From Syntrophorhabdaceae bacterium (lineage in GTDB: Bacteria; Desulfobacterota; Syntrophorhabdia; Syntrophorhabdales; Syntrophorhabdaceae), in the NCBI GenBank assembly GCA_036504895.1, contig DASXUJ010000048.1:38189-102188 (forward strand): a stretch of DNA of 64,000 bases. The letters are read 5' to 3'. The notes under the pieces are model-generated. The model had not been told where the DNA came from, made no database searches, and worked only from the letters and a program-made list of their open reading frames with translations. The translations under genes were made by a program, and so were the position numbers. This document shows, piece after piece, positions 1,903 through 27,238 of the stretch; position 1 is the stretch's first letter, and every line of letters starts with the position of its first letter.

Positions 1903-2390
1903 ACCAACTCCCTCCCCTTCGCTTTAACCCCTTCCTCTTCGCTGCTGCCGGTCCCGAGAGGCATAAGAATCCGCCTTGTGAAAGGGCGGAAGTCAGGCCC
2001 TTTCCCCTGTAGCCCCGATGATGGCTCGGAATTGGCGGGCTCCTCAATCCTGCGGGGCACTCGTCTCGATAAATGGTTTATAAAGCTCAACCGCTGAAAG
2101 TCAAGGGTGGGGCAATTGCTTTCCTATCATCCCAATTCCCTGCTCCGGCTTCGCGGATACGTCTTAAAGGGGGTGACAGTACCCCGGCCCTGACGGCCGG
2201 ACCAAACCCCATCCCGGGAAGGGCACGGCTCAAGGGGCCATCATTAGATCACAGATGGAGGCCCGTATAGTATATAATAGGGCATCCCGCAAAGGGGGTC
2301 CGGAATGAATAGCCGGCCCCACGGCATGGACGGGACGGATAATTATCGGCTGCGGCGGATTGCAGCCCTTTGAAGACAGGAGGAAAATGG
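1903..2390 (+). promoter_or_regulatory. Intergenic region with promoter and leader of the dehydrogenase gene
   Basis: This is a 488-base gap without a convincing gene. It contains repeat copy B (2076-2105), a small hairpin CCGGCC-loop-GGCCGG near 2185-2205, and a strong TATAAT -10 box at 2273-2278 without a good -35 box. Transcription from there would give a leader of about 105 bases. The leader holds a 6-bp hairpin (GGCTGC/GCAGCC, about 2349-2368) and then AGGAGG at 2379-2384, the ribosome site of the 2391 gene. Confidence 0.45.
2076..2105. repeat. Direct repeat copy B
   Basis: This is the second copy of the element at 23-53, in the same orientation. It shares GTTTATAAAGCTCA and CTGAAAGTCAAG and differs only in the central few bases. 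It lies in a gap between the STAS-like gene and the dehydrogenase gene. Confidence 0.6.
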
Positions 2391-3572
2391 ATGAAAAACC
2401 CGAGCGCCCGTGACCCCAATCCGACATACCAAAGGCTCCCGGATCGCGGGCGGCCCATAGAGCTTTTCGTGTCTCCTTCTCAATACATTCAGGGGCAGGG
2501 AGTCATCGGCCTCCTCGGAGAGTATCTGTCCCTGTGCGTCTCGGGCTGCGCGGGCGTGCTCATTACCCCGGGGCGGGACCGTGCCCTTGGGGACAGGGTG
2601 GAAAATAGCCTCAGGGCCGCCGGCTTTACCGTAAGAAAGGCTATCTTTCAGGGCGAATCATCCCTGGCGGAGGCGGGAAGGGTCGCCGAATTCTTCGAAG
2701 GTCCCGGTCCCCGAATAGATGTCCTTATCGGCATCGGCGGGGGCAAGTGCCTCGATGCTGCGAGAATGGCGGCCTCGAGGCTCGGCGTGCGGGCCGTTAC
2801 AATCCCCACCACGGCTTCGACCGATGCACCGACATCGGCCCATTCCGTTGTCTACGACGGGAACGGGGTTTTTGCCGATGTCGAATTCAGCTCAACCAAT
2901 CCCTTATTGGTGCTGGTCGATCTCGATGTGGTTGCCGCTGCCCCGACCCGCTTTCTCGTGGCCGGTATGGGGGATGCCTTTTCCACATTCTATGAAGCGC
3001 GCTGCTGCATGGAAAACCAGGAAGCCCGGACCGCACGGGGCGCCAGGCCGACCATGGCGGCCCTGGCTATTGCGCGTCAGTGCCGTGACCTGCTCCTCGA
3101 ATACGGCACCGCGGCCCTGGAAGAGATCGGGAACCGGGAAACGGGCGAGGCCCTCGAACGTATCGTAGAGGCCAATATTCTTCTTAGCGGGCTCGGGTTC
3201 GAGAGCGGCGGCCTTGCGGGGGCGCACGGCGTGGCCCAGGGATTGACCGCCTGCAGGGATTTGCATACAAACTGCCTTCATGGAGAGCTGGTAGCCATCG
3301 GCACGATGACACAATTGATCATGGAAAAACGAATGGACGAGGCGGAGCAGGCCGCCCGCTTCTTTAAGGACGTGGGCCTGCCGTTGCACCTCGCTCAAAT
3401 CGGTTTCGACCCGCTCGAGAGGGGGCCGGAGCTGGACGAGATCGTGAAGCAGAGCCTCAACGTATTCTTCATCCACTACGAGCCGTTTGAAATAAGCCAT
3501 GATTTCCTGAAGGCATCGATTCTCGAGGCGAGCGAGTTCGGAAAGACCATGGGGAAAACCCTGACAAAATAA
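2391..3572 (+). CDS. Iron-type glycerol dehydrogenase-like oxidoreductase (GldA family)
   Basis: This is a 393-aa member of the iron-containing alcohol dehydrogenase superfamily, GldA branch, which oxidises polyols or similar alcohols with NAD. Visible landmarks are the nucleotide-binding GIGGGKCLDAAR, the TTASTDAPTSAHSVVYD block typical of GldA, the metal-region GMGDAFSTFYEA, and the metal histidines in GLAGAHGVAQG and NCLHGELVAIG. Length is slightly above the usual 360-370 aa because of an N-terminal extension. I start at ATG 2391 because AGGAGG lies 6 bases upstream; an in-frame TTG at 2370 lies before that site. The true substrate cannot be read from sequence. The gene appears to stand alone. 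Confidence 0.85.
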   Translation: MKNPSARDPNPTYQRLPDRGRPIELFVSPSQYIQGQGVIGLLGEYLSLCVSGCAGVLITPGRDRALGDRVENSLRAAGFTVRKAIFQGESSLAEAGRVAEFFEGPGPRIDVLIGIGGGKCLDAARMAASRLGVRAVTIPTTASTDAPTSAHSVVYDGNGVFADVEFSSTNPLLVLVDLDVVAAAPTRFLVAGMGDAFSTFYEARCCMENQEARTARGARPTMAALAIARQCRDLLLEYGTAALEEIGNRETGEALERIVEANILLSGLGFESGGLAGAHGVAQGLTACRDLHTNCLHGELVAIGTMTQLIMEKRMDEAEQAARFFKDVGLPLHLAQIGFDPLERGPELDEIVKQSLNVFFIHYEPFEISHDFLKASILEASEFGKTMGKTLTK

Positions 3573-3756
3573 GGGCAGGGGATGCTCCATGGCCGGAGCC
3601 TCACCACGCACGTGAGAAGCTAACCGTTCAAAGCTAAGTTCGACGGCATGGTTATCAAAGATAGGGCGAAGGTCAATCCGATTATTGCACAAGACCCGCA
3701 GCGGAGAAGGTGGATAAAAATAAAAGCCCCGGTGCGGGCAATGAAAGGAGTCCTTT

Positions 3757-4746
3757 ATGAGCGGCGATGGATTGACCGTCGGTTTTTTTGGACCTGAAGA
3801 TGCGGAAGGGGTGGCGAGGCTTTTTACGGAAGTCTATGGAGACGAATATCCGGCGAAGATAGTCTATCACCCCGACCAGCTTGTCGCCGCATTCGAAACA
3901 CGGGAGCAGATACCGATCGTGGTCCGTACTTCCCGAAAGGTGGTCGTGGGGTATAGCTCTCTGTTCCGCGCTGCCCCGGACAAAGGGGTATACGAGAAGG
4001 GGAATGGGGCGGTCTCGCCGGCCTTCCGGAACGCGGGCATTATGAGGATGATCTTCCGCCACGTGAGAGAGACATTGCCCGGCATTCGCGATATCACGGT
4101 GCTTTTCGGGGAGCCGGTCTGCAATCACATCTATATCCAGAAAGCTGCCCTTGCCGAAATACCCTTCATAGAGACGGCCCTCGAGGTCGGCCTCATGCCT
4201 GCCGAGGCATATGAAAAGGAACAGAGCGCACCGGGGCGGGTATCGACGCTCCTCATGTTCATTACCGCGCGCCCGAAGCCGCACGTGGTCCATGTCCCTG
4301 AGATATATGAGGAGTACTTCCAATATATTTACCGCGGCCTCGATGACGGACGGTCATTCTCCCGGTCGGGAGAGGGGCTTCCCGCCTCGGAAACGACCCG
4401 GATCGAGACGGAGATATTTGCCTCCGCCCGGGTTGCCCGCCTGACTGTCCATGCCGCAGGATCGGAATTTGAACGGGCTTTTTCTGCCGAGGAGGAGCGT
4501 ATTCCGGGCGGGCATGGGGAGGTAATCCAGGTGTGGCTGAAATTGTCATGGCCATGGATCGGAAGGGCGGTCGCTCTGTTGAAGGATACGGGCTACTCCT
4601 TTGGCGGCATATTGCCTCAATGGTTCGGTGAGGACGGGCTTCTCATGCAGAAAACCCTCACCCAGCCGGACTGGGAGGCGATTCACCTCTTTTCCGACCG
4701 GGCGAAGCAGATCCTGGAGTTTATCAGGACCGATTGGCAACAATAA
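3757..4746 (+). CDS. GNAT-like acyltransferase-type protein, paralogue 1
   Basis: This 329-aa protein starts like a GNAT acetyltransferase (FGPEDAEGVARLFTEVYGD) followed by strands such as VVVGYSSLFRAAP and a segment FRNAGIMRMIFRHV, where GNAT enzymes bind acyl-CoA. The classical R/Q-x-x-G-x-G/A loop is not clean. The C-terminal half contains QVWLKLSWPWIG, GYSFGGILPQWFG and DGLLMQK. It is clearly homologous along its whole length to the 12147-13166 product and more distantly to residues about 120-435 of the 4882-6189 product. AAGGAG lies 6 bases before the ATG. It stands just upstream of the molybdenum hydroxylase operon but before that operon's promoter. Substrate is unknown. Confidence 0.7.
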   Translation: MSGDGLTVGFFGPEDAEGVARLFTEVYGDEYPAKIVYHPDQLVAAFETREQIPIVVRTSRKVVVGYSSLFRAAPDKGVYEKGNGAVSPAFRNAGIMRMIFRHVRETLPGIRDITVLFGEPVCNHIYIQKAALAEIPFIETALEVGLMPAEAYEKEQSAPGRVSTLLMFITARPKPHVVHVPEIYEEYFQYIYRGLDDGRSFSRSGEGLPASETTRIETEIFASARVARLTVHAAGSEFERAFSAEEERIPGGHGEVIQVWLKLSWPWIGRAVALLKDTGYSFGGILPQWFGEDGLLMQKTLTQPDWEAIHLFSDRAKQILEFIRTDWQQ

Positions 4747-4827
4747 TTTTGCGATACGCCTTTTGGCGGAACGATCCGATCTCCCGGTCCTGCATCCGCG
4801 GGAAAAGGGTCAATAGATTCGGTTTTG

Positions 4828-4856
4828 TTGACGGGTTTCATGCTTCCTGATATAAG
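4828..4856 (+). promoter_or_regulatory. Sigma-70-type promoter of the Mo-hydroxylase operon
   Basis: TTGACG at 4828-4833, a spacer of exactly 17 bp and TATAAG at 4851-4856 make a near-consensus promoter. The predicted transcript starts near 4863, only about 19 bases before the first ATG at 4882. There is no obvious ribosome site for that ATG, so initiation is on a short leader or at the TTG noted for the gene. Confidence 0.65.
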
Positions 4857-4881
4857 TTAGAACCGACCCGTAATCATTACT

Positions 4882-6189
4882 ATGGAGACATCCTTGGAAC
4901 GAGCGCACAGAGAGACTCGCCTTGCCACGCACCTCGACATGACCTACTTCTCTCTCACCATGTCTTTTATCGAGGAATCGGCCGCCGCATTCGGAATGGA
5001 GGCTCAGGATGCGGGGAGGCTGCGGCTCGCGAGCGAGGAGATATTTACGTACCTCGCAGAATATCGGAAAGGCGAGGCCCTTTCAGTGGAGACGGAGGAC
5101 GGCTGTTACTATGTGGGAGTGAAATTCCTCCTCCATGCCGACCCGGACTCTCCGCCTCCTCATCTCCCGGAAAGGGGACCCGGGCCCCTCGAGCCCGGAG
5201 ACGATCTTGCGTCCATGGGCCTCATTATCGCGTCCAGGTTCGTGGACCGTCTTCACATGCTCGAAGACGGCGGAGTGGGTCTCGTGAAAGAAAAAACCTA
5301 TCCCGAGGCAGGTACGTTGGTCAGGACGCCGGTTCCCGCCCTGGCCCGGTTCCATGTGGCCGCGCCCGAAAACGAAGCCCTCAAGCATTTTGTCCGGCAG
5401 GTTGCCGCCTATTATGGGCCTCAATTTTTCCCCGTCGACTTTTGCTTTCCCGGTAAGGTAGTCGATATGGTTGCCCAGGGTCAGTACCGCGTCCTGGTGG
5501 CAACGGGCGGCGGGGCCGAGGTGGCGGGAGGGATAATGTGGCGCACGGAAGGCGCGCGCCTGATTGAGGCCTTCGGTCCCTATCTTTTCGATCAGCCCCC
5601 TCAATACGGCATGTCCGAGGCCCTGGTGGATGGGCTTCTCATGGAGATCGCAAAGACAGAGGCCTTTTGCGTGACCGACATATACCCGACTCCCGAGCTC
5701 CCTCACGGCTATTTCGAATTATTGGGGTCTATCGACCGCATAAAACCTGACGGACTGAGAGAGGCCCGCCTTTTTTATTACCGCCAGCTGAAGGAAGACC
5801 CCGGGCTTAGCGTCTGGGCCCATCCTGACCTCGTATCGTTCCTGGAACAGGAATATGAGCGCCTCTTTCTTGCCCGCCATATCCGCGTCACCACCGGCGG
5901 AGGTGAGGCACGGCCCGCCCATGCCTTTTTTTCTCTCCGCTTCGATCGTGTCCTGAGCTCGGCAATTCTCCGCCTCCTCTGGGACGGCGCCGACGCCCGG
6001 GAGGTCCTCGAAAATCATGTGAAATCATTGAGAGCCGAAGGGTTTTCGGACATTTTTTTTGAAATGGACCTCGCCCATACCCGGGAGGTCGATCTGACCC
6101 CTCTTCTGTTCCGGCAAGGGTTTGCGCCCCGTCTCGTCTTTCCTCACGGGGGTGGTGCGGATATGGTTGCCTTCCAGTACCAGGGGTAA
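4882..6189 (+). CDS. RsbW-like ATPase domain fused to a GNAT-like domain
   Basis: This is a 435-aa fusion. Residues about 1-145 resemble the serine/threonine-kinase-type ATPase of anti-sigma factors (HATPase_c_2): LRLASEEIFTYLAEY aligns with the N-box and MGLIIASRFVDRL with the second nucleotide-contact helix. The N-box Asn is replaced by Tyr57, so catalysis is doubtful. Residues about 160-435 align with the acyltransferase-like proteins at 3757 and 12147; for example QGFAPRLVFPHGGGADMVAF corresponds to GYSFGGILPQWFGEDGLLMQ. The gene is first in the operon behind the 4828 promoter. The start is uncertain: ATG 4882 lacks a ribosome site, whereas TTG 4894 has GGAGA 5 bases before it. A sensor or regulatory role for the pathway is an inference. 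Confidence 0.7.
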   Translation: METSLERAHRETRLATHLDMTYFSLTMSFIEESAAAFGMEAQDAGRLRLASEEIFTYLAEYRKGEALSVETEDGCYYVGVKFLLHADPDSPPPHLPERGPGPLEPGDDLASMGLIIASRFVDRLHMLEDGGVGLVKEKTYPEAGTLVRTPVPALARFHVAAPENEALKHFVRQVAAYYGPQFFPVDFCFPGKVVDMVAQGQYRVLVATGGGAEVAGGIMWRTEGARLIEAFGPYLFDQPPQYGMSEALVDGLLMEIAKTEAFCVTDIYPTPELPHGYFELLGSIDRIKPDGLREARLFYYRQLKEDPGLSVWAHPDLVSFLEQEYERLFLARHIRVTTGGGEARPAHAFFSLRFDRVLSSAILRLLWDGADAREVLENHVKSLRAEGFSDIFFEMDLAHTREVDLTPLLFRQGFAPRLVFPHGGGADMVAFQYQG

Positions 6190-6200
6190 TAATAAAGGCC

Positions 6201-7331
6201 ATGCCCCTTCCTGACCTCGCCTCTCTCGTCCCGGCCCACATAAGGAAATTCGAGCCCTACATCCCCAGCAATCCCGACCGCGTGCTCATGAACCTCTACG
6301 GGTGCGACCACCTGTGGCGGCTTAACAACAATGAGAACCCCTTCGGGCCTCCCCCTTCCGCCCGTGAGGTGATACGGCGGTTCGAGCCGGCGGAGGCGGG
6401 CCTTTACCCGAGCGGCGACTCATACTACCTGCGTCAAAAGCTCGCGGAAAAATACTCGCTCCACCCGGACCAGTTTCTGGTGGGCAACGGCGCAAACGAG
6501 GTAATCGCTTTTGTGATAAAAGCCTTTTGCCGGGAAGGGGACAATATCATTACCGCTGATAAGACCTTTGCCGTCTATGAATGGGTGGCCGCCTTTTCCG
6601 GGTTCCGGGCGCGGCTCACCCCGCTTAAGGACTTCGGCTTCGATGGGGAGGCCATGCTCGGCCAGGTGGACGAACGGACCAAGATACTCTTCGTCTGCAA
6701 TCCCAATAATCCCACGGGAACTTATTGGAGCGAGGAGAAACTGCGCCGGTTTCTCACCCGCACGGAAGGGCGCCGGATTGTAGTGGTGGATGAGGCTTAT
6801 TGCGAATTTGTAGAGGGCCCCGATTTTCCCGACTCCATGAGCCTCCTCAAAGAGTTCCCGAACCTGGTCGTCTTCAGGACTTTTTCGAAAATGTACGGCC
6901 TCGCGGGACTGCGCATAGGGTATCTGGCGGGAAGTCGGGAAGTGGTGGATATTATCAGGCGCACGCGCGTCGTCTATTCGGTGAACAGGCTGGCCCAGGA
7001 TGCTGCCCTGGCCGCCATGGGCGATCACGGGCATATCGAGCGCACTCGCGAGCTGGTGCGGGTGGAAAAAGGGTATCTCACCGCGGAGCTGGCATCCATG
7101 GGTCTCACTACCCAGTCCGGGGAAGGGTGCTTCATCATGGTGAAGCTGCCCATGAGCGATACCCTTGCATACCGCAGGCTCATGAGTCGGGGTGTCATGA
7201 TCCGCAGCATGACGGGGTTCAGGTTCCCCAACTGGATACGGGTAAGCATAGCCCAACATGAGGCCATGGAGGCATTTATCGGGGCCCTGCGCTACATCCT
7301 CGGGGAAAGACCGGGCCATGAAGGTCGATAG
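6201..7331 (+). CDS. HisC-type class I/II aminotransferase
   Basis: This 376-aa protein is a PLP-dependent fold-type I aminotransferase, nearest in pattern to histidinol-phosphate aminotransferase. It has LNNNENPFGPP at the N-terminus, GNGANEVI, CNPNNPTG, VVVDEAYCEF (the Asp and Tyr that hold PLP) and TFSKMYGLAGLRIGY with the Schiff-base lysine, followed by the phosphate-binding Arg region. Length is normal for HisC (350-380). It lies 11 bases after the ATPase fusion and overlaps the hydroxylase large-subunit gene by 14 bases. No other histidine gene is present here, so a role in transamination of a pathway intermediate is at least as likely as histidine synthesis. The ribosome site (AAAGG) is weak. 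Confidence 0.85.
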   Translation: MPLPDLASLVPAHIRKFEPYIPSNPDRVLMNLYGCDHLWRLNNNENPFGPPPSAREVIRRFEPAEAGLYPSGDSYYLRQKLAEKYSLHPDQFLVGNGANEVIAFVIKAFCREGDNIITADKTFAVYEWVAAFSGFRARLTPLKDFGFDGEAMLGQVDERTKILFVCNPNNPTGTYWSEEKLRRFLTRTEGRRIVVVDEAYCEFVEGPDFPDSMSLLKEFPNLVVFRTFSKMYGLAGLRIGYLAGSREVVDIIRRTRVVYSVNRLAQDAALAAMGDHGHIERTRELVRVEKGYLTAELASMGLTTQSGEGCFIMVKLPMSDTLAYRRLMSRGVMIRSMTGFRFPNWIRVSIAQHEAMEAFIGALRYILGERPGHEGR

Positions 7332-9621
7332 AATTCCTTTTGAGATCGGGAAAGCAACGCCCCGCGCGGACGGCAGCGCCAAGGTTTCGGGGAAAGAGAA
7401 ATATGCCGCCGACTATTACGAGGGCGACTTCCTCTGGGCAGGCGTAAAACGGGCAGGCGTGCCCCACGCGACGATCAAGGGCATTCACACGGAGGCTGCG
7501 GAGGCCCTGCCCGGGGTCATTGCGGTGCTTACCTGGAAGGATATCCCCGGGGAGAACAGGTTAGGGATAATCCGAAGGAACCAGCCGGTTCTTGCCGAGA
7601 CCGTGGTCCGCCACTCAGGCGAGGCAGTGGCCCTTATCCTCGCAGAGAGCCGGGGCGCCCTCAAAGGGGCAATCGATTCTATTCTCCTCGAGTATGCGCC
7701 CCTGCCCGGGGTCTTTTCCGCGCAGGAGGCCTTGAAAGAATCCTCTCCCCTCGTGCACGAGGACAACCCCGAAGGGAACGTGATAAAAGCCGTGTCAGTG
7801 GAGACCGGCGCATGCGCTTCTGCCATGGGCGAGTGCGACGTGGTGGTGGGGGGCGTGTACGAGACGCCCGTCCAGGAACATGCCTTTCTCGAGACCGAGG
7901 CAGGGTGGGCCTATCGCGCGGAGAACGGGGCCTGCGTGATCGTCGCCTCTACCCAGACGCCTTTCCGTGACTGTTTCGAGATAGCCCCGGTTCTGGGAAT
8001 GGACCCGGGGAGCATCCGGGTCATCGCGCCCTATCTCGGCGGCGCCTTCGGCGGCAAGGACGGCATCACGGTCCAGTGCCTCCTCGCCCTTGCCCTGCTC
8101 CATGCAGGGGGCAGGCCTGTAAAGATTTGGTGGGACAGGGAGGAGAGTTTCCTTGCCGGGGTGAAGCGCATGAACGCAACGATGCATTACCGGCTGGGCG
8201 CGAAGCAGGACGGAACGTTCCACGCCCTCGAATGCAGGCTTTATTACGACGGAGGCGCCTATTCGCCCCTCGGCGGGGAGATCATGACCTTGGGGGCCGA
8301 GCATGCCGGCTCGGCATACCGTATCCCGAACGTGAGCGTAAAAGGGTGGGCCCTCTATACGAACAACCCCGTGGGCGGACCCTTCCGCGGGTTCGGCGTG
8401 CCCCAGGTGACGGCTGCCATGGAGCAGATGGTCGATATGGCAGCCCGAAAGCTCGGCATGGACCCCCTCTCGATCCGCCTTCAAAACGTGGTGCGGAAAG
8501 GGGACAGGAATTGTGTGGGAGTGATCCTCACCCACTCCACCGGGGCTGCGGAGTGTCTTGAAACAATCTTAGGCCACCCTCTCTGGAAGACCCGGGATGA
8601 GTGGAAAAAGGGGGCGGGCCTATTTAAAGTCCGGGGCGTAGGGCTCGCGTGTATGGCCCATGCCATGGGTTACCCGCCTATGGTGCCCGACGAGGCCCGG
8701 GCAAAGATCGAGCTTACCGCGGAGGGGAAGATCCGGGTCTATGCGGGTGTGGTTGACATGGGACAGGGGAATGCAAGCACCTATCAGCAGATTGCAGGCC
8801 ATATTCTCGTCCAGGACGGCCCCGCAATGGAGCTGGTCCTGCCCGATACGGCGCGCACCCTGCCGTCCGGCTCCTCGTCGGCAAGCCGGACCACCTATAC
8901 CTATGGCAATGCCCTCATCGAGGCAGCCACTGATCTCAAAAAAGCTATCCTGAAGGCCGCCTCCGCCCAAACCGGCGGAACCCGGCCGGAGGAGTTCGTC
9001 CTTGTGCCGGACCGGGTTCGCCATATCCCCACAGGGAACGAGATCTCTCTCGGGGAATTGGCCGGCTCCATGGACGGGCCGGCAAGGACGGCCACGGGAT
9101 ATTTCAGGATGCCCGTGACCCGGGAAAGGCTCGACGCCATTTACATGGGACCTCACCTCATCTTTTCCTACGGCGCCCACCTCGTCTATGCGGAGATCGA
9201 CGAGCTCACCGGGCAGGTGGAGATCGCGCGCTACCTCGCAATCACGGACGCGGGCAAGGTGATGAGCCCCCGGGTGTACGAACAGCAGATCGAGGGCGCA
9301 ACCGCCATGGGCATCGGGTACGCCCTGACCGAAGATTTCAAGGTCGCGAACGGTTCTATCGTCACACAAGACCTTGCCACCTATATCATCCCTACATCCA
9401 TGGATATCCCCCGGATAGAGTCCATACCCGTTGAAATAGCCGAGGAGACGGGGCCCTTCGGAATGAAGGGGGCGGGAGAAATAGGCATGAGCGGACCCAT
9501 GCCCGCCATAGGAAACGCCATCTGCGATGCGTGCGGGATCAGGATCCTTCGTGCGCCCTTCATTGGCGAAGCCGTGCATGAGGCCCTCTTGTCCGGGAAC
9601 GCAGAGGAGGCCGACCTGTGA
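7318..9621 (+). CDS. Molybdenum hydroxylase large (molybdopterin-binding) subunit
   Basis: This 767-aa protein belongs to the xanthine dehydrogenase/aldehyde oxidase large-subunit family, which binds molybdopterin cytosine or a related cofactor and hydroxylates heterocycles, aldehydes or aromatic CoA esters. Landmarks are GKEKYAADY near the N-terminus, YLGGAFGGKDG, GGPFRGFGVPQ, VDMGQGNASTYQQIA and the C-terminal GAGEIGMSGPMPAIGNA with the catalytic Glu expected in GxGE. It starts at ATG 7318 inside the aminotransferase gene; in-frame ATGs further upstream lie within that gene. The 2Fe-2S and FAD subunits follow directly, giving the usual three-subunit order large-small-medium. The substrate cannot be assigned; xanthine, nicotinate, quinoline or 4-hydroxybenzoyl-CoA-type reactions are all possible. 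Confidence 0.9.
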   Translation: MKVDRIPFEIGKATPRADGSAKVSGKEKYAADYYEGDFLWAGVKRAGVPHATIKGIHTEAAEALPGVIAVLTWKDIPGENRLGIIRRNQPVLAETVVRHSGEAVALILAESRGALKGAIDSILLEYAPLPGVFSAQEALKESSPLVHEDNPEGNVIKAVSVETGACASAMGECDVVVGGVYETPVQEHAFLETEAGWAYRAENGACVIVASTQTPFRDCFEIAPVLGMDPGSIRVIAPYLGGAFGGKDGITVQCLLALALLHAGGRPVKIWWDREESFLAGVKRMNATMHYRLGAKQDGTFHALECRLYYDGGAYSPLGGEIMTLGAEHAGSAYRIPNVSVKGWALYTNNPVGGPFRGFGVPQVTAAMEQMVDMAARKLGMDPLSIRLQNVVRKGDRNCVGVILTHSTGAAECLETILGHPLWKTRDEWKKGAGLFKVRGVGLACMAHAMGYPPMVPDEARAKIELTAEGKIRVYAGVVDMGQGNASTYQQIAGHILVQDGPAMELVLPDTARTLPSGSSSASRTTYTYGNALIEAATDLKKAILKAASAQTGGTRPEEFVLVPDRVRHIPTGNEISLGELAGSMDGPARTATGYFRMPVTRERLDAIYMGPHLIFSYGAHLVYAEIDELTGQVEIARYLAITDAGKVMSPRVYEQQIEGATAMGIGYALTEDFKVANGSIVTQDLATYIIPTSMDIPRIESIPVEIAEETGPFGMKGAGEIGMSGPMPAIGNAICDACGIRILRAPFIGEAVHEALLSGNAEEADL

Positions 9622-10094
9622 AGATACGCTTCACTCTCAATGGAGAGGCCAGGGAAATGGAGACGGATGAGAGACGAAGGGTGATCGATCTACTCCGGGA
9701 GGACCTCACGATGACGGGCACGAAAGAGGGGTGCGGCACAGGGGAATGCGGGGCCTGCACGATCCTCGTCAACTCGGAGAGCAGGCTCGCCTGCCTCATG
9801 GTCGCGCCTCAGCTCGACGGGGCCGAGGTCATGACCATCGAGGGGCTGGCACGGAATGGAGAGCTCCACCCCCTTCAGAAGGCCTTCATAGAATATGGCG
9901 CAATCCAGTGCGGCTTTTGCACCCCCGGCATGGTGATGGCATCCCTCGACCTTCTCACGCGAAACCCGAGCCCGACGGAGGCTGAAATCAGGGAAGGCAT
10001 AAGCGGGAACCTGTGCCGGTGCACGGGCTATCAGAAGATCGTGGAGGCGGTGTCGGCCGCGGCGTCTGCACGCAAGTTGGGTGGGCGCCCGTAA
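9618..10094 (+). CDS. Molybdenum hydroxylase 2Fe-2S subunit
   Basis: This 158-aa protein is the complete small subunit with two 2Fe-2S clusters. The N-terminal plant-type cluster is in GCGTGECGACTILV with a further Cys in RLACLM. The C-terminal cluster is CGFCTPGM followed by NLCRCTGYQKIVEA. It starts at a GTG that overlaps the previous stop (GTGA) and has GAGGAGG about 7 bases upstream. It passes electrons from the molybdenum site to the FAD subunit encoded next. Length is typical (150-170 aa). Confidence 0.93.
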   Translation: MKIRFTLNGEAREMETDERRRVIDLLREDLTMTGTKEGCGTGECGACTILVNSESRLACLMVAPQLDGAEVMTIEGLARNGELHPLQKAFIEYGAIQCGFCTPGMVMASLDLLTRNPSPTEAEIREGISGNLCRCTGYQKIVEAVSAAASARKLGGRP

Positions 10095-10972
10095 TGAACG
10101 TCTATCTGCCCGGGTCCTTAAGCGAGCTGTGGAGCAGGCAGGAGGAGTGCGGCATGGCCCAATTCTTTGCCGGCGGCACCGACCTTTTCGTAAAGCTGCG
10201 CGCCTCGGCTCAATACCCCCGGGCCCTCATAGGGCTTGAAGCCGTAAGGGAGCTTCGATCGATCGAGGAAAGGGAGGGCGCCATATTTGTCGGGGCCGGC
10301 GCGAGCCACACGCGCCTCTTGTCCCACCCGCTCATTCAGGCCCATTTCCCGTTGCTTGCGAAGGCCCTGCGCGTGCTCGGCTCGCCGCCCGTAAGGAACA
10401 TGGGCACCATAGGGGGCAACATCTGCACTGCTTCACCTGCGGGCGACGCGCTGCCGCCCCTTTACGCCCTGGGCGCGGAAGTGGAGCTGAGGAGGAGGGA
10501 CCGGTCCCGCCGGCTCCCGATTCACGAATTTATCCTGGGACCGGGGAAGACCGCCCTTGCGGAGAATGAGCTGCTCTACGGGGTGTGGCTTAAGAAGGAT
10601 GACTCCCCTGCGCTTTTTCACTTTGAGAAGGTGGGACCGCGGAAAGCCCTGGCCATCGCGATCGCCAGTTTTGCGGCCCTCATAAATTCCACGGACGCGG
10701 GGATCGTGAAAAAGGCCCGGTTTGCCTGGGGGAGTGTGGGCCCTGTGGTGGTGACCTCACGCGAGGCCGAGGAGTCCCTTGTCGGCTTTCCCCTCACACG
10801 GGAGAGCCTTCAAAGGATCGTGCCCATCGTCGATAAGATCGTCTCCCCCATCGATGACGTAAGGGCGAGTGCATCCTACAGGAGGGCCTTGGCCGGAAAC
10901 CTCGTGCTGCGCCTTGCGGAGTACGGACCCCGGGAAATGGGCGGGAAGGGGGAGGGGCTTACCCGAACATGA
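10094..10972 (+). CDS. Molybdenum hydroxylase FAD-binding subunit
   Basis: This 292-aa medium subunit of the molybdenum hydroxylase carries the FAD-binding PCMH domain, with FFAGGTDLFVKLRAS and the flavin pyrophosphate loop GTIGGNICTASPAGD, and a C-terminal CO dehydrogenase flavoprotein domain (DKIVSPIDDVRASASYRR). Length is typical. It starts at an ATG that shares one base with the stop of the small-subunit gene (TAATG) and ends in ATGA overlap with the transporter gene, so translation is probably coupled throughout the operon. Confidence 0.92.
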   Translation: MNVYLPGSLSELWSRQEECGMAQFFAGGTDLFVKLRASAQYPRALIGLEAVRELRSIEEREGAIFVGAGASHTRLLSHPLIQAHFPLLAKALRVLGSPPVRNMGTIGGNICTASPAGDALPPLYALGAEVELRRRDRSRRLPIHEFILGPGKTALAENELLYGVWLKKDDSPALFHFEKVGPRKALAIAIASFAALINSTDAGIVKKARFAWGSVGPVVVTSREAEESLVGFPLTRESLQRIVPIVDKIVSPIDDVRASASYRRALAGNLVLRLAEYGPREMGGKGEGLTRT

Positions 10973-12150
10973 CCACATTGCAACCGGACAGGCTTTTTAC
11001 CAGGGAATTCACGGCCCTCAATCTCATCTTCTTCTTTGCCGCGGCCGTGATGGCCCTCTTCTTTCAGTTCCAGCACTATCTTCAGGCCCTGTCCATCCCC
11101 TCCGGGTGGTTCGGGTTCCTTATAGGGGCCGACTCTCTTGCATGCTTCGTTCTCCAGCCCATGCTCGCGGTGCGCCTCAATAGCGGGAACGGCCGGAAAT
11201 GGATCGTGGTCTCCCTCTTCGGAATGGCGCTCGCTCTATTCGCCTACAGCTTCGCCTTGGATCTCGTGACCCTCGCAATAGTCCGCGTAATCCACGGCGC
11301 TGCCTTTGTCTGCCTCGTCTCCGCCATAATGGCAATGATCACGGTGTGGATACCCCGTGAGAAAAGCGGCAGGGCCTTCGGCCTCATATCCGTGGTCAGG
11401 CTCCTCCCTTACTCCATGATTCCCCCTCTCGTCGGTCTGATCGGGGAAAGACCGGCGGATTTCCGCCATATCCTGATCCTCGGGGGCCTGGTCATGCTCC
11501 TCTCTTCCCTTGCGGTTTTAGCCGTGAAGCCCGCGCCGCCGGCAGGGATTACAGGCCCCGCAGATATCCGTCCCACCCAGACCCGGGACCTGTGGACGGA
11601 TATTAAGGACCGGAAGGTGGCAACCCTCCTCGTGGTACAGCTCCTGCTCTATAGCTCCTACACCATCGTTTTTTTCTTTCTCAAGGAGTATGCCCACGGG
11701 CAGGGGATAGAAAACCCCGGCTTTTTCTTCACCATCGCCACCGCGGCCATGATAGGCGTGAGGGTCGCGGGATCTGCCTTCTTCGACCGTTTCAACAAGG
11801 CCCCCGTCGCCGGCCTCTCCCTGGCCGGGCTTGCCGCCTCTTACTATGCCCTCGGCGCGCTCTGCCGCCCTGAGACGTTTTATATTCTGGCCCTTATCAT
11901 GGGCCTCGGGTGGGGGATCGCAATGCCCGTGGTTCTCGCCCTCATATTCGATGTTTCCGAGCCCCCTTTCAGGAGCATGAACCTCAACCTCTCCCTCCTT
12001 ATGATGCAGGGGGGCTTCTTTTTGGGCCCCTTTGGAGGAGGGGTTATCATATCCCGCGGGGGCTATGGTCCGCTCTTCATCTTCACCGCCTTCATAGGTC
12101 TCGCTGCCGCAGGCCTTATATGGACAATTTCCCCAAGGAGGAACGCGTGA
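10969..12150 (+). CDS. MFS transporter
   Basis: This 393-aa integral membrane protein has about 12 hydrophobic segments and the layout of a major facilitator. The loop with LNSGNGRKWIVV lies where the MFS signature follows helix 2, and a long cytoplasmic loop near residues 190-215 precedes the second six-helix half. It starts in an ATGA overlap with the FAD-subunit gene and ends in an overlap with the GTG start of the next gene. Placement in the middle of a catabolic-type operon suggests uptake of the hydroxylase substrate or export of its product; the substrate is not predictable from sequence. Confidence 0.85.
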   Translation: MTTLQPDRLFTREFTALNLIFFFAAAVMALFFQFQHYLQALSIPSGWFGFLIGADSLACFVLQPMLAVRLNSGNGRKWIVVSLFGMALALFAYSFALDLVTLAIVRVIHGAAFVCLVSAIMAMITVWIPREKSGRAFGLISVVRLLPYSMIPPLVGLIGERPADFRHILILGGLVMLLSSLAVLAVKPAPPAGITGPADIRPTQTRDLWTDIKDRKVATLLVVQLLLYSSYTIVFFFLKEYAHGQGIENPGFFFTIATAAMIGVRVAGSAFFDRFNKAPVAGLSLAGLAASYYALGALCRPETFYILALIMGLGWGIAMPVVLALIFDVSEPPFRSMNLNLSLLMMQGGFFLGPFGGGVIISRGGYGPLFIFTAFIGLAAAGLIWTISPRRNA

Positions 12151-13166
12151 GAGAGCAGGGACCGGGGATCGAGGCAGGGCAGAAATTCGAGGTGGACGCC
12201 TTTCGCCCTGAAGACGCGGCCGGAGTGGCGCGCCTCTTCAGAGAGGTATACGGCGACGCCTATCCCATGAAACTGGTCTACGATCCCCTTCGGTTGAGGG
12301 ATGCCTGCGAAAGAGGGGACAACATATCTCTCGTGGCCAGGACCGAAAGAGGCGATGTGGTCGGCCATGAGGCGTTTTACCGCTCCGCCCCCAGCCCTAG
12401 GGCCTATGAGCTTGGCCAGGGCCTCGTCTTGTCTTCCTACAGGGGTCTCGCAATACTGGGAAACCTGCAGGAATATGCCTTCGAAGTAATGGCCCCTTCC
12501 ATGGACCTCGACGTAGTCTTCGGAGAAGGCGTCTGCAACCATATTTTTATGCAGAAAGCATTGACCGCATCCCGGACCGTGCCGATGGCCCTCGAAATAG
12601 ACCTCATGCCCGTCGAGGCCTACGAGAAGGAAGGGAGCGCCGGGGGCCGGGTCGCTGCCCTCCTCATTTTCCGGACCTACCACCCGAGACCGCAGACGAT
12701 ATATATGCCCGGACGGTATCAGGACGCCCTTACGTTTGTATATGAAGCCCTGGACGATGAGCGGACCCTCCTGCAATCTCCAAACGAGGCAAACCCGCCG
12801 GGACTGCCCACCACCATTACGACCCGGGTCTTCGATTTTGCCCGGGTAGCCCGCATGGCGGTCCACGAGGGGGGAGAGGATTTCCCGGGGGCTTTCGAGG
12901 TCGAGGAACGTAAGGCCCTCGCCAGGGGAACGATGGTCGTGCAGGTATGGCTCAAGCTCTCGTGGCCATGGATCGGGGCCATAGTGGAACACCTGAAGAC
13001 GAAGGGGTATTTCTTCGGCGGAGCCCTTGCCCAATGGTTCGGCGGCGACGGCCTCCTCATGCAGAAAGTCTTCGCCACCCCCTCATGGGAGGGGATTCTA
13101 CTCCATTCGGACCGGGCAAAAAAGATCATGGAATATGCCAGGGAAGACTGGGCGAACGGCGTATGA
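12147..13166 (+). CDS. GNAT-like acyltransferase-type protein, paralogue 2
   Basis: This 339-aa protein is a full-length homologue of the 3757-4746 product. Shared blocks include RLFREVYGDAYPMKLVYDP, FGEGVCNHIFMQKA, LMPVEAYEKEGSAGGRV, VWLKLSWPWIG, QWFGGDGLLMQK and SDRAKKIMEY. It begins at GTG 12147, with AAGGAGG 4-5 bases upstream, overlapping the transporter stop. The frame is also open far upstream, but that part lies inside the transporter gene. It is the last gene of the operon. The strongly conserved GExVCNH and LSWPWIG blocks are not standard GNAT motifs and may mark the active site. Function is unknown. Confidence 0.72.
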   Translation: MREQGPGIEAGQKFEVDAFRPEDAAGVARLFREVYGDAYPMKLVYDPLRLRDACERGDNISLVARTERGDVVGHEAFYRSAPSPRAYELGQGLVLSSYRGLAILGNLQEYAFEVMAPSMDLDVVFGEGVCNHIFMQKALTASRTVPMALEIDLMPVEAYEKEGSAGGRVAALLIFRTYHPRPQTIYMPGRYQDALTFVYEALDDERTLLQSPNEANPPGLPTTITTRVFDFARVARMAVHEGGEDFPGAFEVEERKALARGTMVVQVWLKLSWPWIGAIVEHLKTKGYFFGGALAQWFGGDGLLMQKVFATPSWEGILLHSDRAKKIMEYAREDWANGV

Positions 13167-13228
13167 CGCCTCACGCCATGAAAGGCACGGGTCCGCAATT
13201 GGCCCCCTGTTCCTGATAAAGGAGAAAA

Positions 13229-13267
13229 ATGGAAATTAAATATATCCGAAAGGGGCTGCTTGCATGA
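13229..13267 (+). CDS. Twelve-residue leader ORF coupled to the exported deaminase
   Basis: A strong AAGGAG site 4 bases upstream precedes an ATG whose reading frame encodes MEIKYIRKGLLA and stops in TGA overlapping the ATG of the next gene (ATGA). The next gene's own ribosome site (AAAGGGG) is 9 or more bases away. The arrangement suggests translational coupling rather than a functional peptide. It could also be chance. Confidence 0.35.
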   Translation: MEIKYIRKGLLA

Positions 13268-13905
13268 AAGGACTCACCCTTACCGCCATTTTGTCAGCCC
13301 TGCTCCTCGCCCTGTCCCTTGCCCCGGTCATGGCCGGCAATGGGGCAGTTGGCCCCAATCAGGCCGAGACCGCTGCAAAAGATCACGAACGATTCATCCG
13401 GCAGGCCTATGACCTGGCGATCAGTGCCGGAAAAAAAGGCAACCACACCTTCGGGGCCCTCCTGGTCCATGAGGGCAAAGTTATGCTGACGACGGAGAAT
13501 ACGGTCTATACCGACAAAGACAGTACCCGTCACGCGGAGATAAACCTCATAGTCAGGGCGAGACGAGAGATTTCGCCCAAAGTGCTGGGGGAGAGCACTT
13601 TGTACACCAGCGCCGCACCCTGCATGCTCTGCTGCGCGGCAATGTGGTACTCAGGCTTCAAGAGAGTCGTCTATGGCGTCTCCTACGACGCCCTGGCGGA
13701 ATTGACGGGATTTAAGGATAAGAGCATTCCCTGTGACAAACTCCATGAACAGACCGATAAACCCCTTGAATGGATCGGGCCTGTCCTCGAAAAGGAAGGC
13801 CTGAAGGTCTTCTGCTGTTGGCCCCGGGATTCGTTTCAATCTTCCATTCTGAAGAAACTGGACTGTGCGGACATGGGGAGCCGCTGCAATGGCGAGCCTC
13901 GATAA
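13264..13905 (+). CDS. Exported cytidine/guanine deaminase-fold protein
   Basis: This 213-aa protein has a clear signal peptide (MKGLTLTAILSALLLAL, cleavage probably after VMAG) followed by a nucleoside-deaminase domain. The zinc and proton-shuttle signature is intact: RHAEINL (His and catalytic Glu) and, about 35 residues on, PCMLCCAAMW (the two zinc Cys). The order and spacing resemble guanine deaminases and TadA-type enzymes, which are normally cytosolic. Export to the periplasm is unusual. It follows the molybdenum hydroxylase operon by 97 bases on the same strand and might deaminate a purine-like substrate, which is a guess. The C-terminal tail is Cys-rich (FCCW, DCAD, SRC). Confidence 0.8.
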   Translation: MKGLTLTAILSALLLALSLAPVMAGNGAVGPNQAETAAKDHERFIRQAYDLAISAGKKGNHTFGALLVHEGKVMLTTENTVYTDKDSTRHAEINLIVRARREISPKVLGESTLYTSAAPCMLCCAAMWYSGFKRVVYGVSYDALAELTGFKDKSIPCDKLHEQTDKPLEWIGPVLEKEGLKVFCCWPRDSFQSSILKKLDCADMGSRCNGEPR

Positions 13906-15598: not shown

Positions 15599-16609
15599 TC
15601 AGCCTTGCCTTTTTCGTGCCGCCCTTACCTTGACCAGTTCGGCCGCAATGCTCACGGCGATCTCCTGCGGTGTTTCCCCATCGATATCGAGACCGATGGG
15701 GGCATGAACATTTTCGAACAACCGCGGGTCCACGCCGCGACCCGCCAGGTGGTCGTAGATTATCTTCGTCTTACGCCTGCTGCCTATCATGCCCACGTAT
15801 GCCGAAGGCTGGGCGAGGACCGATTCGAGCACTTCCGCATCGTTCTTGTGGCCTCTCGTGACGATGACATGGTAATCCTCCGGCGTCCGCTCGAGGTTTC
15901 TCAAGACCTCGTCAAAAAATCCGGCGATCACGCGTTCGGCTTCGGGAAAACGATCCCTGTTGGCAAAGGACATACGGTCGTCGATCACCGTGATGTCGAA
16001 ATCGACCATTGCGGCAATCCTGGAGATGAATTGGGATATATGACCGGCGCCGTACAGATAGAGGCGGGGCTTGGGATTGATCGGCTCCACAAGGAAGCCG
16101 GCCTTCACCAGGGTTTTCCGCTCTCCAAAGGAGCCGCCGGTCACCTCATGGGGAAGGGCCTTCGGGTCGCCGCCCCACACTTCACCGTCTTCAGCTTGGA
16201 CCATTTTGAAGAACCGTCCGTCGCCGACAGCCGTGATGATCCGGGCCCTTCGTCCTGATGTCACGCATGACCGGATCGCCGTATAGAGGTCCCTATGGAC
16301 GGGAAGGACGGGCTCCAGGAAAATATCCACATTGCCCCCGCAGATCATCCCCTCTTCGGCCACTTCCGTTCCCGTCATGGTATAGTGAATTACTTTGGTG
16401 TCCCTGCCTCCCATGAGCCACCTGGCTTCCTTCGTCGCCTCGGCCTCCACGCAGCCTCCCCCGATAGTACCGTGAAGCCGGAAGTCTTCTCCCAAAAAAA
16501 CCTTGGCCCCCGATCCTTGCGGAGTCGCCCCCAGTTTTCTTATGATCGTTGCGAGAACGCCGCCACGACCTTCTCCCAGGTACTGCTCGATTACGTCATA
16601 TAGGTTCAA
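15599..16609 (-). CDS. xdhC: XdhC/CoxI-family molybdenum cofactor maturation protein
   Basis: This 336-aa protein has the N-terminal CoxI domain (TIGGGCVEAEATKEARW, EEGMICGGNVDIFLEP) and the C-terminal Rossmann-type XdhC domain (RLYLYGAGHISQFISRIA, VIVTRGHKNDAEVL, YVGMIGSRRKT). XdhC proteins bind and protect sulfurated molybdenum cofactor and deliver it to xanthine-dehydrogenase-type enzymes. The start is a TTG with AAGGAG 8 bases upstream. A near-perfect promoter lies at 16675-16703. Its natural client here is the three-subunit hydroxylase at 7318-10972. Confidence 0.9.
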   Translation of the reverse strand: MNLYDVIEQYLGEGRGGVLATIIRKLGATPQGSGAKVFLGEDFRLHGTIGGGCVEAEATKEARWLMGGRDTKVIHYTMTGTEVAEEGMICGGNVDIFLEPVLPVHRDLYTAIRSCVTSGRRARIITAVGDGRFFKMVQAEDGEVWGGDPKALPHEVTGGSFGERKTLVKAGFLVEPINPKPRLYLYGAGHISQFISRIAAMVDFDITVIDDRMSFANRDRFPEAERVIAGFFDEVLRNLERTPEDYHVIVTRGHKNDAEVLESVLAQPSAYVGMIGSRRKTKIIYDHLAGRGVDPRLFENVHAPIGLDIDGETPQEIAVSIAAELVKVRAARKRQG

Positions 16610-24802: not shown

Positions 24803-27238
24803 TTAAAGCTTTATGTGGAGGCTTTCGCCGAGCTTCCTGAACGCCGCCTCCCGCCGCAGGGCGTCTTCATTTCCCGTCTTCGCCGCTACGTCAATAAACT
24901 CGCCCTTCTCTTTTCTCAAGGTGAAATATACGTTCTGGGCCCTCCACAGGTCGAGGTGCAGGGGCAGACCCTCCAGAACCTGCAGCGCCTCGCTCACCTT
25001 CTCCATGAGGGGAATCATGTCCGGCCCCTCCGGGTCCCGGGCCACCTCGTGGAGTCGCGCATGGATCCAGGTGCCGGCAGCCAGGGAGATCCCTTCCGCG
25101 TTGATCTGAACTTCCCATTTTTTCGTATCCTCCACCAATTGGGAGAGCTTTTCAACAGAGACATCGCCCCTAAAGATCGTCTCCAGGTCGTCGTTCAAAG
25201 TCTGCTCCGCCGCGAGACGCATTTGAGGAGGGACAGGGTTCCGCAAAGATTGGAGAAAAGCCATAAGGCTGTAGTTATCTTCATAGATCGTCCGGTAAAG
25301 GGCCATAATTCCGTCGTAGCGGTCTTTCAGTATCTCATTGATGACGAATCTCTGCTGATCCCTGAAGAGATGCCAGAGGTTGAAATTCGAAGAGGAAGGA
25401 AAGTGCCTGTCCATGGTCCTGACCATTTCCGCCACATCTCCTTTTTTGAATGCAGACATGACTTCATCGTGCATGGTATTGAACTTTTCTTCGGTCTCGA
25501 ACTCTTTTACCCCGCTCGACACATTATGGTCGCCCATGTAGACGGCGGCGAGGTTGAGACAGGCCTCATCCCACGTCCAATCGGAGCGTACGCGCCCCCT
25601 CCCGATCGCGAGCTTCATCTTACCCGCCGCTTCCGTATCGAATACCTCATCATCTATCGTAAAGGAGTAAATACGCTTTCCTTGTTCGGGATATTCCATG
25701 AAGAGAGAGGATATAATGTAATGGGCAGCCACACGCAGGATGTCGACTTTCGCCGGTTTCACGTAGAGCTCGTACACCTTGGCACCGTCCCCGACCACGT
25801 TGCCCGGGGCCTTCGCAAGCATGGCGACGAACTCAGGCTCCACAGGCGATTCCTGTCCCAGGCCGTCGAGGAGTTGGATCATCCGCGCCGCGTATTGTAT
25901 CACCTGAACGGTCTCTATGCCCGAGATCTCGTCGAAGAACCAGCCGCAGCTGGTGTACATGAGCATGGCGCACCGCTGCATCAGAAGAAGCTGGAGGGCC
26001 CTGACCTTCTCCTCGTCGCTGAGGGGCCTGACGCTGTGCTCCTCCAGAAAAAGGGAGACCTTTTCCTCCGAAGGGTCGAGTACCACATCGATATACTCAT
26101 CTCTCGCGCGCCACGGATTTTTAAGGTACTTCCCCGCTTCCTTTTCATAGACCGGTAAGGCCTTGTCCCTTAGCCAGTCGAGGGACTCCCTCAAGGGCTT
26201 TCTCCACTTCTGGTGCCATCCCTGATGCATCCCCGAATTGCACCCGCAATTCTCCTTCCACCGTAACACGCCATGGGCACAGCTCCATGACGAGTTCTCG
26301 TAGATTTCGACGGCCCGGGTCGGTGGGTGGTGTTCAAGATATTCACCGTACACGGTGACCTTTGCAAGGTTGTTCGACTCGATGTGGTGGAGGGCATAGG
26401 CAAGGGCCATATCCCCGAAATGGTGGTGATGGCCGTAGGTCTCGCCGTCAGTGGCGATGTGCACGAGCTGGTCCCATGTCCGGTCATCGTTGAAGGCGCC
26501 GATCAACCTGTTCGCGAAGGACTCTCCCTGCTTCAATATATCTTCGAAGGCGATGCCTCTCGAGATGGGGCCGTCGTAAAAGAACAGGTTGATGCTCTTG
26601 CCCGAGGGGAGGGGACAGGAATAGACCATGGTGGGATCGATCGCCTCCCCGTCCACGCTCTGCCATCCGTTCACGTCGTCGAGGTCCCTCACCTGGTGCG
26701 CCTGTCTCGGCGCGAGCACCGTAAACTTGATCCCCTGCTCCGCCAGGACCTCCAGGGTCTCAAGGTCGACCGCGGTTTCAGGCAGCCACATGCCCTCCGG
26801 CTCGCGATGAAATCTGTGCACGAAATCTTTGATACCCCATAACACCTGGGTCCTCTTATCGCTCCTGTTTGCCAGGGGCATGATGAGGTGGTTATATGCC
26901 TGGGCGATCGCGGAGCCGTGGCCGGAAAACCTCTCCATGCTCACCCGGTCCGCTTCCAGAACCGCTCCATACGTCTCCGGTGCGTGAACCTCCATCCAAC
27001 TCAGAAGGGTGGGGCCGAAATTGAAGCTTATCCTGGAATAGTTGTTGACGATGTCGATAATTCCGCCGTCTCCCCCTGTGATGCGTGACGCGGTATTGGG
27101 GGCGTAACATTCCGCGTCTATCCTGTCATTCCAGTCATGGAAGGGATAGGCGGAGTCCTGCACCTCCACTGCCTCGAGCCAGGGGTTTTCCCGCGGAGGT
27201 TGATAAAAATGGCCGTGAATGCACACGTATCGATCCAT
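24803..27238 (-). CDS. Glycoside hydrolase family 57 / DUF3536 protein
   Basis: This 811-aa protein begins with the GH57 signature YVCIHGHFYQPPRENPWLE and continues with FVHRFHREPEGMWLPETAVD, FNDDRTWDQLVHIATDGETY and GHHHHFGDMALAYALHHI, then the long DUF3536 domain in the C-terminal half. GH57 enzymes are alpha-glucan amylases, branching or 4-alpha-glucanotransferase-type enzymes. The glutamate in MWLPE is a likely catalytic residue and the ATDGETYGHH block a second. No signal peptide is visible, so it probably acts on cytosolic glycogen-like glucan, together with the debranching enzyme and TreZ of this window. Confidence 0.88.
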   Translation of the reverse strand: MDRYVCIHGHFYQPPRENPWLEAVEVQDSAYPFHDWNDRIDAECYAPNTASRITGGDGGIIDIVNNYSRISFNFGPTLLSWMEVHAPETYGAVLEADRVSMERFSGHGSAIAQAYNHLIMPLANRSDKRTQVLWGIKDFVHRFHREPEGMWLPETAVDLETLEVLAEQGIKFTVLAPRQAHQVRDLDDVNGWQSVDGEAIDPTMVYSCPLPSGKSINLFFYDGPISRGIAFEDILKQGESFANRLIGAFNDDRTWDQLVHIATDGETYGHHHHFGDMALAYALHHIESNNLAKVTVYGEYLEHHPPTRAVEIYENSSWSCAHGVLRWKENCGCNSGMHQGWHQKWRKPLRESLDWLRDKALPVYEKEAGKYLKNPWRARDEYIDVVLDPSEEKVSLFLEEHSVRPLSDEEKVRALQLLLMQRCAMLMYTSCGWFFDEISGIETVQVIQYAARMIQLLDGLGQESPVEPEFVAMLAKAPGNVVGDGAKVYELYVKPAKVDILRVAAHYIISSLFMEYPEQGKRIYSFTIDDEVFDTEAAGKMKLAIGRGRVRSDWTWDEACLNLAAVYMGDHNVSSGVKEFETEEKFNTMHDEVMSAFKKGDVAEMVRTMDRHFPSSSNFNLWHLFRDQQRFVINEILKDRYDGIMALYRTIYEDNYSLMAFLQSLRNPVPPQMRLAAEQTLNDDLETIFRGDVSVEKLSQLVEDTKKWEVQINAEGISLAAGTWIHARLHEVARDPEGPDMIPLMEKVSEALQVLEGLPLHLDLWRAQNVYFTLRKEKGEFIDVAAKTGNEDALRREAAFRKLGESLHIKL

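Follow-up and report, generated by a model that had tools for sequence, protein, structure and literature searches.

A predicted two-domain GNAT family with RsbW-type fusions and its recurring molybdenum hydroxylase gene block in a Syntrophorhabdaceae bacterium

Partner switching is best known from the control of sigma factors; a handful of enzymes, a diguanylate cyclase among them, are also known as outputs. RsbW-type kinases carry an Asn in the N-box and a D-x-G motif in the G1 box, and GNAT proteins possess a CoA-binding loop of the pattern R/Q-x-x-G-x-G/A. The 64,000-nucleotide stretch of Syntrophorhabdaceae DNA analysed here, referred to as the window, encodes three GNAT-type proteins (P0001, P0002 and P0008) around a molybdenum hydroxylase operon, and P0002 additionally contains an RsbW-like domain. 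In the case of SiaABCD from Pseudomonas aeruginosa, according to two reports, SiaC activates the diguanylate cyclase SiaD; this partner switch likewise comprises a PP2C-type phosphatase, a kinase and the target protein SiaC, which acts on an enzyme and not on a sigma factor (PMC8457831, PMC7647112). The output of SiaABCD is a diguanylate cyclase, whereas the output proposed here is a GNAT-type protein with a fused kinase-type domain.

Among titles and abstract openings of the open-licence literature, neither an RsbW-GNAT fusion, nor an acyltransferase output, nor this operon was found, which is weak evidence of absence; PMC8256260 makes no mention of acetyltransferase, GNAT or "enzym". The fusion of a partner-switch kinase to acyltransferase-type modules is widespread and the operon is strongly conserved, and no name was found for the operon. 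Two questions become testable: whether the acylation of small molecules is switched by partner switching, and what the anaerobes carrying the block make and export.

Relationship of the three GNAT-type proteins

The three proteins and the domains of P0002 are located as follows.
P0001: 3757..4746, + strand, stand-alone two-domain GNAT-type protein of a separate clade (basis: identity to P0008, tree, loci of relatives)
P0002: 4882..6189, + strand, predicted pseudo-enzyme in which an RsbW-like domain is joined to a pair of GNAT-like domains (basis: profiles, model, motif loss)
RsbW-like domain of P0002: 4906..5298, + strand, residues 9-139, with Tyr57 in place of the N-box Asn, no G1 motif, Glu53 retained
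First GNAT-like domain of P0002: 5344..5811, + strand, residues 155-310, no CoA loop
Second GNAT-like domain of P0002: 5812..6180, + strand, residues 311-433, predicted from its profile match to the corresponding fusion domain (E 2.4e-11)
P0008: 12147..13166, + strand, stand-alone two-domain GNAT-type protein of the operon clade (basis: model, GNAT match, tree)

Profile comparison places the three proteins in one predicted two-domain GNAT family of common ancestry, the complete form of which is an RsbW-GNAT-GNAT fusion. P0001 and P0008 are homologous from end to end, as the original prediction had stated, at 48% identity. In the window's genome, the P0008 family has five members, including these two; two of the other three, P0251 (contig C44) and P0252 (contig C21), are full fusions, in which an RsbW-type domain is followed by the entire P0008-type module. 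A profile built from 111 such full fusion proteins links all three window proteins with matching domain order. The RsbW-like part of P0002 matches its fusion counterpart at a profile E of 4.9e-13, its first and second GNAT-like domains match theirs at 1.9e-4 and 2.4e-11, and the P0001/P0008 family matches the fusions at 6.5e-44. As a bridge between P0002 and P0001/P0008, the fusions give profile E values of 8e-12 and 6.5e-44. Eight pairs of mismatched domains range from 0.077 to 0.58. By these profiles, P0002 consists of an RsbW-like domain and a diverged copy of the two-domain GNAT-type module of P0001 and P0008.

This relation depends on the bridging fusions. In a BLAST-type pairwise comparison P0002 has no match to P0001 or P0008, and the direct profile comparison without the fusions is weak (E 0.034; 0.016, 0.055 and 0.0024 for the C-terminal part of P0002 and its two domains). 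The direct alignment of this part with both other proteins, reported earlier, was not recovered, and the similarity behind it stands solely through the fusions. In Pfam, HATPase_c_2 in P0002 and GNAT in P0001 lie below threshold, and P0008 has no match. Searched by sequence, the P0002 family has no solved relative at E up to 1, and the P0001/P0008 family has weak GNAT matches, the best at 0.18. The GNAT fold was found for P0008, P0001 and P0002, and the GHKL/RsbW fold for P0002, in which the listed structural matches of the model span residues 6-141 and 153-313; the assignment to one GNAT-type family is supported. Compared with GNAT N-acetyltransferases such as PA4866 (2j8m), the module contains two tandem GNAT-like domains, and its CoA loop is imperfect in P0008 and absent from the P0002 family.

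P0002 differs from the intact fusions in both ligand-binding motifs. All 111 fusions carry the G1 Gly; the N-box Asn is present in 96% of them and the G1 Asp in 83%, with Glu at that position in another 16%. In the P0002 family (50 rows), unlike the RsbW and SpoIIAB kinases of the RsbU-RsbV-RsbW type, the Asn column is occupied by Tyr (Tyr57) in 96%, the G1 motif is absent and Glu53 is invariant, and the domain is fused to GNAT-like domains. The CoA loop of the fusions retains R255 in 110/111, G256 in 100/111 and G258 in 92/111 proteins. The loop is partial in the P0008 set (R99 in 59/60, G102 in 35/60, Ala102 in P0008 itself; R99 in 45/49 and G102 in 27/49 for P0008 with its copies at the loci described below), P0001 reads RNAGI at this site, and the pattern is absent from the P0002 family (columns 237-244, 50 rows). 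Since both the ATP-binding motifs and the CoA loop have been lost in its family, P0002 is likely a pseudo-enzyme. A working kinase is unlikely, with the N-box Asn replaced by Tyr and the G1 motif gone, and the anti-sigma-like ATPase proposed earlier survives as an RsbW-type fusion devoid of ATP-binding motifs. The degenerate domain retains the invariant residues E52, E53, G113, R119, K136 and K138, which argues against plain decay.

The three window proteins belong, by their tree positions, to separate old clades. P0001 groups with P0133, P0137, P0253 and others, whereas P0008 groups with the family copy of locus L007, P0135 and other operon copies; a local triplication, as originally proposed, is therefore rejected. 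Two further family copies beside a P0002 relative are clear in only 6/74 loci (L007, L038, L046, L053, L057 and L072), of which L007 carries an RsbW-GNAT-GNAT-type protein in the slot upstream of the P0002 relative; in L029, two pieces look like a single gene. Five loci of P0001-clade relatives (L120-L124) contain no P0002 or HisC homologue nearby, and P0001 possibly lies outside the conserved block. Another molybdenum hydroxylase-type enzyme is present in L121 and L122; in both (L121:1648-6814), its FAD subunit is fused to a pyridine-nucleotide oxidoreductase and the genes are divergent from the P0001-type gene.

The recurring gene block and its enzymes

Between P0002 and P0008, and downstream, the window encodes the following.
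P0003: 6201..7331, + strand, HisC-like aminotransferase, second copy in the genome (TIGR01141, 303.7 bits, cut-off 276.55)
P0004: 7258..9621, + strand, large molybdenum-cofactor subunit of the XDH family, likelier start 7318 (MoCoBD_1, MoCoBD_2, Ald_Xan_dh_C)
P0005: 9618..10094, + strand, [2Fe-2S] subunit (Fer2, Fer2_2)
P0006: 10013..10972, + strand, FAD subunit, likelier start near 10091-10094 (FAD_binding_5, CO_deh_flav_C)
P0007: 10969..12150, + strand, MFS transporter (MFS_1), overlapping each neighbour by 4 bases
XdhC/CoxI-family protein: 15599..16609, - strand, possible molybdenum-cofactor helper for the hydroxylase (XdhC_C, XdhC_CoxI)

A scan of public genomes with the P0002 family yielded 74 loci, at which neighbours were counted by profiles; many contigs end within the block, and a few of the counted matches are weak or cut by a contig edge. 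The recurring order is P0002, HisC-like protein, molybdenum hydroxylase, MFS or MATE protein, and P0008. HisC is found at 70 loci, the large molybdenum subunit at 46, the stand-alone GNAT type at 44, the FAD subunit at 43, the iron-sulphur subunit at 42 and MFS at 40, followed by STAS (21), the SpoIIE type (18), RsbW (17), MATE (10), the GDSL type (9), XdhC (9) and the NMT1 type (7). With the large subunit at 46/74 loci, the predicted recurrence next to XDH-type subunits holds, and the neighbourhood is not random. Among the 31 loci that extend 9 kb or more in each direction, HisC occurs in 30, FAD in 28, the large and iron-sulphur subunits in 27 each, and the stand-alone GNAT type in 25. The HisC gene comes after the P0002 relative on the same strand, no more than 400 bases away, in 64/71 loci; it adjoins in 68/71 when four loci with overlapping frames at the end of that relative (L025, L033, L055 and L063) are counted by reading, is 2.4 kb away in L075 and is missing from L045 and L049.

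By these matches, bacteria of distant kinship share the block; Sporomusa malonica (DSM 5090, locus L044), Syntrophomonas wolfei, Desulfobacter vibrioformis and Dethiosulfatarculus sandiegensis are among those that carry it. In the window's phylum, 40/297 sampled genomes match at E 1e-3, 8 via short matches and 32 at E 1.8e-88 or better.

The hydroxylase P0004-P0006 has the three-subunit make-up of the XDH family, with MoCoBD_1/2, two [2Fe-2S] domains, FAD_binding_5 and CO_deh_flav_C over the Pfam cut-offs. The same subunits and domains are found in 4-hydroxybenzoyl-CoA reductase (1rm6) and nicotinate dehydrogenase (3hrd), the nearest solved relatives of P0004, with 1rm6_A as the nearest chain; P0004 stays under every NCBIfam cut-off shown (for pucD, 494.6 against 783.65 bits). 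In the case of P0003, which passes the model of histidinol-phosphate transaminase, the neighbours are not histidine genes, and another TIGR01141 gene (303.1 bits) of the same genome adjoins a histidinol phosphatase-type gene on contig C109. The idea that P0003 is the genome's sole HisC is thereby rejected, and from the second copy and the non-histidine neighbours its substrate is likely a different one.

An exporter gene is present in 25/31 of the longer loci, 19 MFS and 6 MATE, none with both. Across the 74 loci the two types are mutually exclusive (40 MFS only, 10 MATE only, 24 neither). MATE proteins are exporters as a rule, and the replacement of MFS by MATE points to export, leaving the catabolic-type locus of the original prediction doubtful. 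Such exporters also suit a detoxification cassette, in which the hydroxylase would oxidise a toxic compound, the aminotransferase and P0008 would convert and acylate it, MFS or MATE would pump it out, and the partner switch, where present, would sense the compound or stress; oxidation, acylation and efflux is one order known from detoxification. This explanation ranks second and is unlikely: an aminotransferase fixed beside the P0002 relative is more typical of synthesis, and no resistance gene occurs among the families scanned.

Partner-switching genes and a proposed mechanism

Representative genes near the loci encode STAS proteins, RsbW proteins (HATPase_c_2), dCache-HAMP-SpoIIE proteins and NMT1-type binding proteins. 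At least one of the STAS, RsbW or SpoIIE types is found at 26/74 loci and all three at 12/74, including L034 with a weak, edge-cut SpoIIE match. SpoIIE-type genes occur in 9/27 long loci against 0.57 expected from the number of SpoIIE genes per genome, and at least 9 were reached in 0/200000 simulations; in 4/12 SpoIIE-bearing loci tested, the match is the only one of the assembly. Furthermore, in the window's genome, STAS, RsbW and the P0251 fusion form a run on contig C44 (L111), and the same order is seen in L128.

In L115 and L118, the run is MFS-GNAT-STAS-RsbW, with no HisC or molybdenum hydroxylase match within the 15-16 kb taken. In L118, it continues into OEP, HlyD, ABC and MacB-type genes, again of the export type; this MacB/HlyD/OEP set downstream also counts for detoxification. 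Within L118 (2735-14762), genes for a sigma-54 activator, a PAS-HD protein and MarC border the run at one end; at the other, the HlyD protein carries PAS. L116 and L117 encode the RsbW and GNAT parts in two separate, adjoining frames.

The loci without HisC and hydroxylase also bear on protein acylation, in which lysines of HisC or of the hydroxylase would be modified by the GNAT-type proteins and the pathway thereby regulated, in line with the modification or control system of the original prediction. The common GNAT-type fold and the close gene neighbourhood agree with it, but the family also occurs away from both proposed substrates, no target is indicated and P0002 lacks the CoA loop, making protein acylation improbable.

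Our favoured, tentative reading from the sequences is that the predicted GNAT family would provide both acylation and control in a conserved operon whose predicted role is to produce or alter a small amine and send it out of the cell, with partner switching as the control. In this reading, a GNAT acyltransferase would be the output of the partner switch and tied to a make-or-modify-and-export pathway, with output, substrate and binding all predicted. In the proposed mechanism, a dCache phosphatase would read an outside ligand, and this phosphatase, together with the RsbW kinase, would determine how far the STAS protein is phosphorylated. STAS would then bind to or dissociate from an RsbW-type domain, either part of the GNAT-type protein or the product of an adjoining gene, and thereby switch acyl transfer. 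N-acylation of the amine would fall to P0008, and its export to the MFS or MATE protein. P0002, with both catalytic signatures lost, would act as a docking pseudo-enzyme for HisC or P0008. The extended form, in which this doubly degenerate pseudo-kinase/pseudo-acetyltransferase docks the phosphorylation-controlled STAS protein onto the HisC-like transaminase and the two-domain GNAT enzyme, so that distantly related anaerobes would make and export an acylated amine under the direct gating of an outside signal, is doubtful.

Several observations weigh against the favoured reading. No STAS, RsbW or SpoIIE gene is found at 48/74 loci, many of them on short contigs, and the window's contig (C48) has no RsbW (PF13581) or SpoIIE (PF07228) match. 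The CoA loop of P0008 is imperfect, with Ala102 where 35/60 relatives carry Gly; the P0002 family, without kinase and CoA signatures, may bind neither ligand; and frameshifts could account for the split genes in L116 and L117. By record titles, 7/10 MATE loci are Bacillota, so the MFS/MATE exclusion is partly a matter of lineage and the rows are not independent.

The missing partner-switching genes, at the loci and on C48, and the lost kinase motifs of the P0002 family would also fit an ordinary metabolic operon, in which the GNAT-type proteins serve the pathway as enzymes or helpers and the RsbW-like domain is vestigial and unconnected with partner switching. This explanation is rather unlikely, less so than protein acylation and more so than detoxification, as the degenerate domain keeps its six invariant residues, SpoIIE genes are in excess near the loci, and intact fusions occur with STAS and RsbW genes. 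The modification or control system suggested at the outset stays a candidate, its control part gaining from the neighbouring partner-switching genes.

Other features of the window

Within 3400-13400, the promoter scan (3 promoter-like sites, 3.0 expected) and the terminator scan (13 terminator-like sites against 9.8 expected, sd 2.9) are uninformative, and tRNA and Rfam scans of the whole window gave no matches. Directly upstream of P0001 and outside the recurring block, a glycerol dehydrogenase-type gene is situated at 2370-3572 (+ strand; NF006941, 356 bits, cut-off 336). A DUF3536 protein with a glycosyl hydrolase 57 domain is encoded at 24803-27238 (- strand). At 13264-13905 (+ strand), a deaminase-family protein (dCMP_cyt_deam_1, 1.4e-18) has an N terminus that by eye resembles a signal peptide; a non-cytoplasmic deaminase of this type would be unusual.

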